64,000 nucleotides of DNA from Candidatus Thalassospirochaeta sargassi (GTDB lineage: Bacteria; Spirochaetota; Spirochaetia; UBA9216), in contig JAQQAL010000040.1 in assembly GCA_028532855.1 (NCBI GenBank), forward strand, positions 1-64,000. Direction: 5' to 3'. Position 1 is the first letter of the stretch, and the number at the start of each line of letters is the position of its first letter. Of this stretch, positions 39,346 through 44,465 are shown piece after piece. The notes under the pieces were generated by a model. The model was not told the origin of the DNA. It did not search any database and saw only the letters and a list, made by a program, of their open reading frames with translations. Position numbers and translations under genes: made by a program.

Positions 39346-41340
39346 TTATTCAGTAAAATCTGATAAGCGGGTGTGCCCAGCCGGTTTTATGAAACGTGAA
39401 AAAACAGCAGCAATAATAGCGCAATTAACTACTGAAGCCGCGGCAAAGATATTCCATTCGGGCGCCCCGGAAGCGATACTCCCTACAAAAGAATAGAGTT
39501 TGACACTGATTGTATAGAGGCTGTCGTCGTTGAGAAATAACAGCGGCGCCATAAAGCTGTTCCATGCACCGAGGACGGCTGTCATAACGGCCGTTGTCAG
39601 GACCGGCCGCGAGAGCGGGAGGACAATTCTTCCGAGCCATCCCAGCGGAGAGAGTCCTTCTACCAGGGCGATGTCGCGGAAGGATGCCGGCATCTGCTCA
39701 AGCCAGGCTGTGATTGTGAACATCGAGAATGGAATGCTGTGATATATCGATATGATTATAAGCGGAGTATAGGAGTTTACCATTCCTATGCGTTCGAATG
39801 ATGAGTACAGCGGAATCAGTGAATGCATTCCACCCGTGATGCTGAGTATCTGGATGAAGGTTAGCGCAGCGGCGGTTGCAACCCTGCCTTTACTGTTGAG
39901 CCAGGCAGCAGCGGGGAAGCAGACAAGGGGGACCAGTATGCCTGTAAGTCCCGCTACCAGGATGGTATTCCTGAAATATATCAGGATGTTCTCTTCAGTG
40001 AAGATAGCCCTGTAGCTTTGAAGCCCTGCGTAGGGTGGCAGGGGGGCATCAATAAAACAGGCGCTGACGCCCGAAAAACTCATCCAGAAAAGCAGGTACA
40101 CAATGGCCGCTGAAGACAGAACAAGGACTGCAACTGTAAACGTACTGAAACTGCTGTTCAGGCGTTCAATGAAGCCCGCGTTGAGTCCTCCCGTGCTGAT
40201 ATATTCTTTCTTTTCCCTGCAATAATAAAGGGTGAAAAGCGCTGGAAGTATGCCCGGAGAAAGGCCTGCAAGAAAACCCTGTGTTACAATGTTGAATATG
40301 ATTAAGCCGGCGTTTATCGCTATGGACAGCTTGAAGATTCGTCTGCTTTTAAGACCTGCAAGATAGACGGCTGCAGGTATCAGGCCGGCAGTCCATGAGA
40401 AAATGATCTGCAGTGCCGCGGTGATAAAAATCAGCAGCCTGCGTTTTTTCTCCAGGCTGTATTTTCTGTTTCCGGCAACCCGCCAAATCAGCATCAGTAA
40501 AATTACGATTGCAGCCATCATGACCGAGTATGCTGAGCTTATACCGTAATCATCCGTATTGCTGAAAACATCATAGAGAAAGGTGTCGATGGTGGTCGTT
40601 GCCCCTATTACATACCTGTTTGTTATGCCCGAAAGAAGCGGCGGACCGCCTGCCGTCATCAGGAACATCAGCGTAAACTCTTTAAAGGCCTTTATGAAAT
40701 TCAGGACCCCCATAACCGTCAGGGTGCCTTTAATCTGCGGCAGATAGATCTGCGCGGCAATAACACCCTTGTCAGCACCATCCAGAATAGCTGCCTCAAC
40801 TGTGCTTGACGGAATTTTTTTCAGGGCGCCGAGCAGTACGAATGCCGTCAGGGGAACCGTCATCCACAAATTGACTATGAGGCAGCTGATAAAACCCGCT
40901 GCCGGATCCAGCATAAGGTTGACCTGAATCCCGAAGAGGCTGGTCAGAATTGAACTTCCGCCGTTTCCGTGGATTAGCGCTCTCCAGAGCGGTACTGCTA
41001 TGTAGACAGGTATACCCCAGGGGATGAGCAGGGCGGCATACAGAAGCCCGGTCATTTTTTTTCTGCCCGAAAGGGCTACAGCGATTATGAAGCTGAATAA
41101 TAGACTAAGCAAGGTAGAGCTTACCGCCCAAACAGCTGTAATGTTCAGGCTGTAACTGAAGCCGGCGTCATCACCTAGATACCTGAAGTTATCCAGGCCT
41201 GCAAAACTGCGGATTCCGTATATGTCGTGAAAAAAGGATGTTGAAAGGGCTTCGAAAAAAGGAGATATCCCCGCCACAGCTATTACAAGCAGGGCGGGAA
41301 TTATAAAATAAATCTTTACATTAAAATTAGTCCTACTCAA
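39346..41340 (-). CDS. Fused MalF-MalG-type ABC sugar permease
   Basis: A 664-aa polypeptide containing both permease halves of a carbohydrate (CUT1-like) importer. The first half (about residues 1-290) has its ATPase-coupling EAA loop at 182-200 (EAAILDGADKGVIAAQIYL). About 100 residues with several extra membrane segments form a linker (about 300-400). The second half (about 400-664) has its EAA loop at 557-575 (IALVEGLSPLGWLGRIVLP). Normally these are two genes. It overlaps the repeat lipoprotein gene by 8 bases. No ATPase gene is in the operon, so a shared MsmX/UgpC-like ATPase must serve it (inference). Confidence 0.85.
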   Translation of the reverse strand: MSRTNFNVKIYFIIPALLVIAVAGISPFFEALSTSFFHDIYGIRSFAGLDNFRYLGDDAGFSYSLNITAVWAVSSTLLSLLFSFIIAVALSGRKKMTGLLYAALLIPWGIPVYIAVPLWRALIHGNGGSSILTSLFGIQVNLMLDPAAGFISCLIVNLWMTVPLTAFVLLGALKKIPSSTVEAAILDGADKGVIAAQIYLPQIKGTLTVMGVLNFIKAFKEFTLMFLMTAGGPPLLSGITNRYVIGATTTIDTFLYDVFSNTDDYGISSAYSVMMAAIVILLMLIWRVAGNRKYSLEKKRRLLIFITAALQIIFSWTAGLIPAAVYLAGLKSRRIFKLSIAINAGLIIFNIVTQGFLAGLSPGILPALFTLYYCREKKEYISTGGLNAGFIERLNSSFSTFTVAVLVLSSAAIVYLLFWMSFSGVSACFIDAPLPPYAGLQSYRAIFTEENILIYFRNTILVAGLTGILVPLVCFPAAAWLNSKGRVATAAALTFIQILSITGGMHSLIPLYSSFERIGMVNSYTPLIIISIYHSIPFSMFTITAWLEQMPASFRDIALVEGLSPLGWLGRIVLPLSRPVLTTAVMTAVLGAWNSFMAPLLFLNDDSLYTISVKLYSFVGSIASGAPEWNIFAAASVVNCAIIAAVFSRFIKPAGHTRLSDFTE

Positions 41341-42730
41341 GGCTTATCTTGGTAACATTACGGACATTTTTTATGCCGGCGGGAAGAAGTTCGGTGTCTT
41401 TGTCCCAGGCCACAACAAGGGGAAATTCATTTTCTTCAAGTTCCGAACCGTCGCCGTTGAACATTGCGATGATAACATCATCATTACCTTCAAGCTCAAC
41501 TGCATTCAGGCTTATAGAGAAGCCATCTGCGGCTTCGATTGTAACTGTTTCATAATCACTGTAGCGTTCAAGAAGCATATAGATAGGCATTCCCATATAG
41601 GGTTTAAGTTTGGTTTTCTTCTTGTTCCACATTTCAACTATGGTTCTTGAGTTTGTGACGCCGGACATGAGTGTCTGTGCATCCATAACCTCAGTTCCAG
41701 CTGTACTGATAATTTCAAGATCAAAATCCTTGAACTCAGTATCTTTAATAATGATCTTTTTAACCATCCGGGCTGAAACATGACCTGTAAAATTCGGATT
41801 CTCAGGTCCTACTTTTACAAGTCTGATGTAGCCGGGGTCTTCTGGCATATAGGCTCCATCCTCTTTGAAGGCAAGAATCCAGTCTCCGTCCGCATTATCA
41901 AGCAGCTGTTCGCCGCTGTAGTTCATTGCATAGCCGTCCATTGCCTCAATTGTAATCGACATATCCTTTGTCAGTCTTGTGTACTCATTAATGAGGTCTA
42001 CAATCTTTACCCCGGCCCATGTAAATTCAAAGGTATTGTTATAACTGTTTGTATAATTACCCTTATCTTCAATGTAGTAATCCAGTTCTTCAAGTTCACT
42101 AATCTTATATGCACCTGTTTTGGACCCGATTTCAAGCAGCAGTTCAAAATCATTGTTTTCAAGAGAGATTGCTTCGAGCGATGCCGAAATTTCAGCAAGG
42201 TTTTTAACCCAGAGCTGCCCAGAAACTTCACCACAGACCATCGGCATAATCTTTTCGTCATTCATATAATCTGCTATGTATAGTTCATTTATTGGATGAT
42301 CTGCAGTATTGATTGTTGCGGCGTAGCCGTCAGCGGCAGTTAAAGTTAGATCGTATCCGGCATTCCAGAGTTCTTCATCAAATGAATACGGCATTGTTGC
42401 GTCGGCATCATCGACCATTGCTACAAGTTTTACAAGGGGCATTGCTTTCAATGTAACCATCTCACCTTTACGTTCAAACTCATAGTCTCCGTAACCTGAT
42501 TCAGGATCACTCTTCCAGTCTTCAAAATTGCTTTCCCATACTTCGTCGGTTCGAACGCCGCTCACAGCAATCATCCAGCCTTCACCCTTCGGTGTCGCAT
42601 GGCTGGTGTCGTCGGCTGTTTCGGCGATAGGTGCATCGTTTGCACTGTTTGTACCTGTTGCACATCCTGCAAACAGCAGTACAATAGTCGCAAGCAGAAC
42701 GCTCAAAACAATTAGCAGTTTTTTCGTCAT
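41333..42730 (-). CDS. Lipoprotein with three SUOX-like repeats
   Basis: A 465-aa lipoprotein (lipobox LLFAGC). After a short linker it has three related units of about 110-135 residues, marked by TAADGYAATI (residue 131), EAMDGYAMNY (262) and EAADGFSISL (399). Each is preceded by a hydrophobic VKLVxMV/VKIVDLI/MLLERY helix and followed by a charged acidic strand and a WVKN/MVKK/NVTK segment. The pattern resembles the C-terminal half of sulfite-oxidase-type molybdopterin domains (DGY...L.G..L...PLRLV...VKxI.I), but no cofactor cysteine is seen. It sits between the binding protein and fused permease genes, so it probably assists ligand capture. GGAG precedes the ATG. Confidence 0.7.
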   Translation of the reverse strand: MTKKLLIVLSVLLATIVLLFAGCATGTNSANDAPIAETADDTSHATPKGEGWMIAVSGVRTDEVWESNFEDWKSDPESGYGDYEFERKGEMVTLKAMPLVKLVAMVDDADATMPYSFDEELWNAGYDLTLTAADGYAATINTADHPINELYIADYMNDEKIMPMVCGEVSGQLWVKNLAEISASLEAISLENNDFELLLEIGSKTGAYKISELEELDYYIEDKGNYTNSYNNTFEFTWAGVKIVDLINEYTRLTKDMSITIEAMDGYAMNYSGEQLLDNADGDWILAFKEDGAYMPEDPGYIRLVKVGPENPNFTGHVSARMVKKIIIKDTEFKDFDLEIISTAGTEVMDAQTLMSGVTNSRTIVEMWNKKKTKLKPYMGMPIYMLLERYSDYETVTIEAADGFSISLNAVELEGNDDVIIAMFNGDGSELEENEFPLVVAWDKDTELLPAGIKNVRNVTKISLE

Positions 42731-42740
42731 GTTCTCTCCT

Positions 42741-44231
42741 TTAATTTCTGTCTTCTAAATTTTTATTTACAAGTTCCTGCGTCTTTTCCAGGACCTGTTC
42801 AGCCGGCATTTTGCCGGAAATTGCAAACCTCAGCATCTTCCACATAGTGTTTTTGTATATGGAATATGCTTTATCAGTGGGTATTACCGTTCCCGCCTCA
42901 GAACTGATGAGCAATGTTTCATACCACTGATTATCTTCTGAAATTGCCGGCAGGGCGGTTTCAAGCGCGGGCAGTTTGGCTGTTGCAGAAGTGAAACGCT
43001 GCTGCACTCCCTGCCCGCAGAGGTACTCGATAAGCCTTCTTGCCCCGATTGTATTTTTTGATCGTTTGGAAATGGCAAAGGCTTTGAAGTCCAGCAGCGG
43101 AGAAACCCTGATTCCTGTATCCGGATTAATGGGCAGCGGCGCTGTATCGAAGGGAATTCCCAACTCAAGAAAATGCGGGATAGCATAGGATGCACTGATA
43201 ATTGATGCAACCTCACCGGATACAAACAGGGCTGTCATTGCATCACGCTCCATAGGCTGCATTAGGCCTTCCTTCTGGAGCTTTAGAACATACTCGAGTG
43301 CCTGAAGGGTTGGTTCGTCGTTAATGATTATTGAGCCGTCAGGTTCTACCAGGCTTTTCTTGCCGAAGGCAATTTGAAATGGGATTAAAAACGATGCCGA
43401 ATATGAATTCCATGCGGAAGGAATGAGTTTTGACTCTGCTGCTTTTCTGCATGTCTCCTCAAAATCCCGCAGGGACCAATTGACATCAGGTTTGCGGATG
43501 AGTTCAGGGTTGAAGAAGAGCATCTGGGTATCGTAGTAGAACGGAATTGCCCATACCCTGCCGTTGTGGCTGAAGGCCTCTCTCCCCTGCTGAACCATTC
43601 CTCCGGGAAACATGTAATCCAGACTTTGAATCGCTGATGAATTGGCAAGCCTGTCAATATAACTTGATTGTACCATTAAAATATCGGGCACATTGCCGCC
43701 TGCCTGGGTTACAGATACGAGTTTTGAATCAGGTTTTGGAACCTCGGTGACCTTAACCTCAATTCCATGCCTTAGGGACCAGCGGTTAATCTCATTCTTC
43801 AGAAGATCGATGCCCTCCCAGTTAATCCATATTTCAAGCGGGTCATCTTCCAGCTGCTCGCATTCAATATTTATTGATTTTATTCCGGTTATTGTCCGCG
43901 ATTTGTATAGCAGAGCCCATTCGTTGTCAATGTCAATAAGCTTAATTTTAGACAGCTCATCGGCTAGATCAGGATCACTGAAGCGCATTGAGGAGGGTGA
44001 ATCTCCAGTTTCAATCTCAATCCTCCAGGCTTCAAACATGGCTGGAAAAAGTTCATCAAGTGAAACCGTACCTACTGATTTCCCGATGTAAGTCGATTTC
44101 CACGACAATTCTGATAATTCGGAAGACGATAAGGTTTCCCATAATGTATTGTTAACTAAGAATGAGATTGCATGAAGGTTGACCGTTATTAATATCAATA
44201 CGGCTGATAACAGTCCTGTTTTTTTTAACAC
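42741..44231 (-). CDS. Extracellular solute-binding protein with extra N-terminal domain
   Basis: A 496-aa exported binding protein. The signal peptide lacks a lipobox cysteine (LILITVNLHAISF), so it is likely soluble or held by its uncleaved segment. Residues about 25-130 form an added domain whose pattern (VSLDELFPAMFEAWRIEIE ... ITGIKSINIE) looks like a worn copy of the repeat in the next gene. From about residue 130 it is a MalE/UgpB-type fold (PDILMVQSSYIDRLAN, GRVWAIPFYYDTQMLFFNPE). The start is a GTG with GGAAG about 8 bases upstream. It is the first gene of the ABC operon. Confidence 0.8.
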   Translation of the reverse strand: MLKKTGLLSAVLILITVNLHAISFLVNNTLWETLSSSELSELSWKSTYIGKSVGTVSLDELFPAMFEAWRIEIETGDSPSSMRFSDPDLADELSKIKLIDIDNEWALLYKSRTITGIKSINIECEQLEDDPLEIWINWEGIDLLKNEINRWSLRHGIEVKVTEVPKPDSKLVSVTQAGGNVPDILMVQSSYIDRLANSSAIQSLDYMFPGGMVQQGREAFSHNGRVWAIPFYYDTQMLFFNPELIRKPDVNWSLRDFEETCRKAAESKLIPSAWNSYSASFLIPFQIAFGKKSLVEPDGSIIINDEPTLQALEYVLKLQKEGLMQPMERDAMTALFVSGEVASIISASYAIPHFLELGIPFDTAPLPINPDTGIRVSPLLDFKAFAISKRSKNTIGARRLIEYLCGQGVQQRFTSATAKLPALETALPAISEDNQWYETLLISSEAGTVIPTDKAYSIYKNTMWKMLRFAISGKMPAEQVLEKTQELVNKNLEDRN

Positions 44232-44360
44232 GGAGCTTCCTTTCCAAGTACGGGAGGCGCTGCTGTTTCCGGCAGTGCCCGGCGATCTTAAACCATAGAA
44301 CGCAAAAAGAAATTATTGTTCCTGCAGGTGTTAAGATTCGGAAGTTAAAATATTCAGTGA
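44232..44360 (-). promoter_or_regulatory. Long structured leader of the fused-permease ABC operon
   Basis: About 120 untranslated bases lie between the predicted promoter and the GTG start, in a genome segment where most leaders are absent or short. Near its end is a C+G-rich stem region around CCGGGCACTGCCGG (44263-44276). It matches no riboswitch class that I know; it may be a regulatory leader or simply a long 5' UTR. Confidence 0.35.
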
Positions 44361-44411: not shown

Positions 44412-44444
44412 AAAAAAAAAGCGGAAGAAATGATTTTCCTCCGC
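44412..44444 (-). terminator. Rho-independent terminator of the acyl-CoA synthetase gene
   Basis: Minus-strand stem GCGGAGGAA/TTCTTCCGC (44421-44444) is followed by nine T residues (44412-44420), only 21 bases after the stop codon. Confidence 0.9.
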
Positions 44445-44465
44445 CGGTATGATTCGTGGTTTTGT

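Follow-up and report, generated by a model that had tools for sequence, protein, structure and literature searches.

An operon of three genes, located on the minus strand of the 64,000-nucleotide stretch of Candidatus Thalassospirochaeta sargassi DNA analysed here (the window), encodes in tight succession a binding protein, a lipoprotein built of sulfite-oxidase-like (SUOX-like) units and a fused permease. We propose, with a probability of roughly 0.55, that it is an ABC importer scavenging a pterin-based tungsten or molybdenum cofactor, or a close molybdopterin species. The more specific version, a dedicated importer of the intact cofactor, with receptors derived from enzyme domains that once bound it, by which some spirochaetes run tungstoenzymes without cofactor synthesis, is held at a little less than even odds. 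To our knowledge no bacterial importer of the Mo/W cofactor is known, and none for Moco or Tuco was found described in the open-access literature and databases searched. According to the prevailing view, Moco is synthesised de novo in every cell that needs it, and it crosses membranes by an unknown mechanism (C. elegans dietary Moco study, PMC9793310). If true, the proposal supplies a concrete three-gene candidate for cofactor import and explains how aldehyde ferredoxin oxidoreductases (AFOR) could be run in genomes without detected MPT synthesis; an enzyme fold may here have been recruited as the receptor that transports the cofactor it formerly held.

The features of the operon are collected in Table 1. 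A gap of 10 bp separates the binding-protein and lipoprotein genes, and the lipoprotein and permease genes overlap by 8 bp. This make-up, put forward in an earlier note on the same DNA, is borne out by gene calls and Pfam, with the permease gene lying outside the span of 41333-44231 to which that note referred. The MalE-like part of the binding protein begins at about residue 133, following an N-terminal domain of residues 20-130, and its PDB matches, which are maltose-binding proteins, fall over the portion after this domain. The permease has a MalF-like N-terminal half and a MalG/GlcU-like C-terminal half, with the EAA segments EAAILDGA and DIALVEGL. Among 27 homologues of the lipoprotein, including partial ones, 21 have Cys in the column of Cys23, and the signal peptides are of Sec/lipoprotein type in appearance, not Tat. 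No ATPase gene is present within the operon. Upstream, a hairpin resembling an intrinsic terminator, by pattern match only, separates the operon from an AMP-ligase gene.

Table 1. The operon and its control elements in the window, with the units of the lipoprotein in residue numbers.
Feature	Position	Strand	Remarks
Fused MalF-MalG-type permease, two EAA loops	39346..41340	-	TTG start; PF00528 (BPD_transp_1), two stretches
Lipoprotein, lipobox Cys23, three SUOX-like units	41333..42730	-	PF00174 on unit 2; HMM-HMM repeats
Unit 1 of lipoprotein	residues ~48-188
Unit 2 of lipoprotein	residues 193-333
Unit 3 of lipoprotein	residues 334-465
Solute-binding protein, MalE-like (SBP_bac_8/SBP_bac_1)	42741..44231	-	GTG start; Pfam 3.5e-19
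Moco/tungsten-cofactor riboswitch (RF01055), P3-less	44221..44355	-	Rfam 63.9 bits, E=4.8e-13
Intrinsic-terminator-like hairpin	44420..44445	-	11-pair stem and T run; pattern match only

The riboswitch, which the earlier note had not seen, scores 63.9 bits against a gathering score of 36 and overlaps the first start codon of the operon. Its 3' end contains GGAAAGGAAG, after which comes the GTG start at 44231, and the 3' GGAAAGGA is likely the ribosome-binding site of the binding-protein gene. Two recurrent peptide strings opening the reading frames of binding-protein homologues are translations of this RNA element. In a genome-wide search, each of the 23 operons whose 5' end is assembled had RF01055 there, a count that leaves out the operons of G329 and G434, cut by contig ends. 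Membership of the operon in the Moco-riboswitch regulon is established about as firmly as sequence evidence allows, and a Moco/tungsten-cofactor riboswitch in this place points to the ligand. The P3 stem of the window's riboswitch is deleted in the Rfam alignment, and the other operon riboswitches are likewise without P3, as judged by a script, which misplaced some stems, and by eye. This P3-less form is correlated with tungsten-cofactor metabolism (Regulski et al., 2008, PMC2408646). Known targets of Moco riboswitches are molybdate transporters and, frequently, enzymes; a P3-less riboswitch directly before a transporter operon is a likeness to the Moco/Tuco regulon (RF01055), whose described transporter targets are, unlike the present operon, molybdate or tungstate systems (PMC2408646). 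In Syntrophomonas wolfei, two P3-less RNAs beside putative sulphite oxidase genes were listed as possible exceptions (Regulski et al., 2008, PMC2408646); these genes may be of the same kind as that of the SUOX-like lipoprotein, and if the present proposal is true this exception of 2008 deserves re-examination.

The lipoprotein was found in five genomes belonging to the window's family, in three of the phylum sample and in more of the class sample, most of the genomes compared being drafts or MAGs. In all, 25 spirochaete genomes of 18 genera and 13 families have the operon (24 in the class sample, and G378), its gene order being that of the window wherever contigs reach, with differing flanks in L011, L023 and L025. 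The earlier note had made its proposal of a transporter with tandem SUOX-like domains lacking the molybdopterin cysteine depend on the co-occurrence of the three genes in other genomes; they stay together in 18 genera, which supports it. No relatives were found among viral contigs and plasmids and one in a search of genome contigs, the reach beyond Spirochaetota being that of one scan for close relatives.

Lipoproteins of this family contain two to three units depending on lineage. The window's protein has its ADGY-type motifs where they had first been noticed (131, 262 and 399), namely AADGY at 132-136, EAMDGY at 262-267 and EAADGF at 399-404. The Pfam model Oxidored_molyb, the SUOX domain (PF00174), passes its curated cut-off on residues 233-335, within unit 2 (E=3.8e-8), and was matched in eight of eight homologues tested (best 1.3e-13). 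HMM-HMM comparison of the units, each represented by 22-25 homologues, confirmed that all three are mutually homologous, giving 2e-7 for units 1 and 2, 1.6e-17 for units 1 and 3 and 5e-11 for units 2 and 3. For comparison, no unrelated pair did better than 0.01, and the truly related halves of the permease reached 2e-6. Against a SUOX alignment of MsrP and eight others, unit 1 reached 2e-5 and unit 2 3e-6, while unit 3 alone was weak at 0.013. The SUOX resemblance claimed for the units is thus direct for the first two and, for the third, goes through them.

The SUOX-type Mo-ligating Cys is missing from the lipoprotein units, with no Cys at the position of MsrP C146, as the earlier note had stated. 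Its description of the units as cofactor-free may nonetheless mislead on the main point, since in unit 2 an invariant Arg and a basic residue are kept at presumed molybdopterin-binding positions. Conservation within the lipoprotein is highest in unit 2, where D265, G282, W284, G300, R303, G308, P312, G316 and S319 do not vary among the 25 to 26 sequences that span these positions. R303 (25/25) and R/K321 (26/26) align with MsrP R238 and K251, which are molybdopterin contacts by the MsrP annotation; fewer of these presumed contacts remain in the window's units 1 and 3. In view of the basic residues retained in unit 2, the cofactor may be a cargo that the SUOX-like units bind. In sulfite oxidase, the change of a hydrogen-bonding Lys to Arg corresponds to disease (PMC10673323). 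The operon shares a homologous domain with the sulfite oxidase/MsrP family and differs from it in the missing Cys, the two or three units, the lipoprotein anchor and the coupling to an ABC permease.

A fourth, worn copy had also been suspected at the N-terminus of the binding protein. Residues 20-130 align collinearly with unit 2 along 81 columns (6.5e-5) and reach only 0.006 against SUOX directly; a diverged fourth SUOX-like copy is moderately supported. AlphaFold models, for which the alignment input comprised only two sequences (the window's and L004), had a mean pLDDT of 36 for the lipoprotein, too poor to test the fold, and 40 over most of the binding protein, usable only in its N-terminal domain, where pLDDT was about 55-85 and the beta-rich order is akin to that of the units. 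Foldseek with this domain returned nothing at E<=0.001 and weak beta-grasp matches. A PDB search gave no match with the lipoprotein sequence alone and, with its profile, SorA in register at E=1.3.

With regards to the ligand, a MalE-like binding protein is of a type suited to organic ligands and points to one, although the resemblance of this domain to sugar-binding proteins counts against a cofactor. Its match to SBP_bac_11 reached only 8e-4, in two of seven members, too little to class it among oxyanion-type binding proteins. The window's genome (G000) holds five further Moco riboswitches, located before a Tup-type ABC operon (PBP_like_2, permease, ATPase), an SBP_bac_11 gene that has a FecCD-type ABC operon after it, a ferredoxin-like gene with an AFOR gene, a TiaS-like gene (L137, contig C6; a small protein with a DDTDN motif) and purB. 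This genome also keeps Moa/MoeA, and with both transporters under riboswitch control an oxyanion role of the operon would be redundant there. In other genomes the riboswitch targets are moeA-moaA-moaC, XDH-type enzymes and aldehyde dehydrogenases, and orthologous operons are adjoined by FdhD, MobA and a molybdopterin oxidoreductase (L042) or, at other loci, by AFOR genes (L009, L050).

MoaC was searched for in 395 genomes of the class, and MoaA and MoeA in 41 chosen genomes. MoaC is present in 14 of the 24 operon-bearing genomes of the class sample and undetected in ten, where incompleteness would account for 2.6 losses (P(>=10) about 4e-5 if the genomes are independent). Of the 25 operon genomes, 11 gave no detectable MoaA or MoeA, namely G001 (97% complete), G378 (95%), G409 (93%), G413 (97%), G423 (90%), G427 (89%), G434 (81%), G446 (87%), G473 (90%), G518 (73%) and G519 (88%); G378 lies outside the MoaC sample, and MoaC is undetected in the other ten. 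The short MoaA of several lineages scores near the limit, so MoaA alone is weak and MoaC together with MoeA carry the argument. G449 has MoaC, with MoaA and MoeA undetected. Where MoeA is undetected, metallated cofactor would be needed from outside, if the tungstoenzymes of those genomes work. The other riboswitches recovered in the genomes without detected MoaA and MoeA lie before oxidoreductases (G001, G423, G518) or before a second SUOX-like lipoprotein gene (G427; L055, on the short contig C4), with no tungstate-type transporter behind them. A strict rule, by which the operon would be present if and only if MPT synthesis is absent, was rejected, as 14 operon-bearing genomes keep MoaC; cofactor import would be supplementary in these.

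These genomes also bear on the possibility that tungstate, molybdate or an organic chelate is imported instead of the pterin cofactor, the SUOX-like units binding the chelate. Moco riboswitches are indeed known before molybdate transporters (PMC2408646), another one in G005 precedes a TonB-type receptor gene, and unit 3 may hold a metal site, with an aligned Cys in ten lipoproteins and two aligned His in twelve. We nevertheless regard metal import as unlikely, given that the Cys and His residues are lost in the window's clade, Tup-type and FecCD-type systems are already part of the G000 regulon, and a pterin cofactor could hardly be made from bare metal in genomes without detected MoaA and MoeA (or MoaC, where searched).

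AFOR_C, the tungsten-type aldehyde oxidoreductase domain, was detected in nine of the ten operon genomes with MoaC undetected, the exception being G519. Across the class sample, strong AFOR_C occurs in 23 of the 24 operon genomes versus 87 of 371 others (Fisher 5e-13, uncorrected for phylogeny). For AFOR genomes without MoaC, the operon is not the sole answer to that situation: 23 sampled genomes have strong AFOR_C with MoaC undetected and the operon absent, and among the 14 of these that were searched MoaA was found in none and MoeA in one (G442). AFOR_C without the operon or detected MoaC, MoaA or MoeA is seen in G401, G419, G420, G429, G463, G488, G499, G502, G503, G523, G537, G565 and G586. 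Neither a Moco riboswitch nor a diverged operon was present at 11 loci from seven AFOR_C-positive genomes without the operon or detected MoaC.

The association with AFOR_C, together with the MalE-like binding protein and MalFG permease, would also suit an importer of the substrate of tungsten-dependent aldehyde oxidoreductases (e.g. a sugar or aromatic acid), co-regulated since these enzymes need the cofactor. This we consider quite improbable: it leaves the SUOX-like build of the receptors unexplained, no riboswitch other than that of the operon was recovered in G378, G409, G413, G446, G473 and G519, and G519 has the operon with AFOR_C undetected. That the lipoprotein is itself a working SUOX-family molybdo- or tungstoenzyme, served by the transporter, appears very improbable despite its SUOX homology and the frequency of enzymes among Moco-riboswitch targets (PMC2408646), as the conserved Mo-ligating Cys is missing, the signal peptides look Sec/lipoprotein type and not Tat, and the SUOX-like units are repeated.

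Capture and import of a W/Mo-pterin is therefore proposed from the riboswitch, the MalE-like protein, the genomes without detected MoeA and the molybdopterin-holding fold combined. In the mechanism that we infer, periplasmic cofactor would be captured by the single diverged SUOX-like domain of the binding protein and by the two or three units of the lipoprotein, through the molybdopterin-binding face of the SUOX fold and without covalent attachment between Cys and metal. The fused MalFG permease would then receive the cofactor, with energy from a MalK-type ATPase presumably encoded elsewhere, and the P3-less riboswitch, spanning the ribosome-binding site, would turn translation off when cofactor is plentiful. 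A candidate for this ATPase in G432 is a solitary ABC ATPase with TOBE_2, located directly behind its own Moco riboswitch (L124, contig C416).

CUT1-type importers (MalEFGK) have in common with the operon a binding protein, a two-domain permease and EAA loops, whereas here MalF and MalG are fused, the operon has no ATPase, and SUOX-like receptors and a cofactor riboswitch are added. The likeness to ModABC, TupABC, WtpABC and MolBCA lies in transport within Mo/W metabolism, with Tup-type and FecCD-type systems sharing the riboswitch regulon here. However, the binding proteins of such systems found here are PBP_like_2/SBP_bac_11 or Peripla_BP_2, and that of the operon is MalE-like.

Several further features were observed in the lipoproteins and the regulon. 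The aligned Cys of unit 3 is found in lipoproteins including L024 and L025, which also carry CxxCH; a heme protein, suggested by this motif and by similarity to diheme_GEGP, was rejected as a general explanation, being confined to these two lineages. In G005 (L096, contig C26), a Moco riboswitch apparently with P3 lies before two genes, one unassigned and lipoprotein-like, the other for a protein with the plug domain of TonB-dependent receptors. Ordinary aldehyde dehydrogenase genes (PF00171) follow Moco riboswitches in G399 (L120) and G329 (L133), and a TiaS-like protein similar to that of G000 is encoded downstream of a FecCD-type ABC operon in G458 (L123). The purB gene stands behind a Moco riboswitch in G000 (L099), G003 (L103) and G005 (L109), and the genes after it in the latter two resemble guaB, purA and guaA on reading of the sequence, purB alone having been checked with Pfam; a link to cofactor synthesis through GTP is possible.
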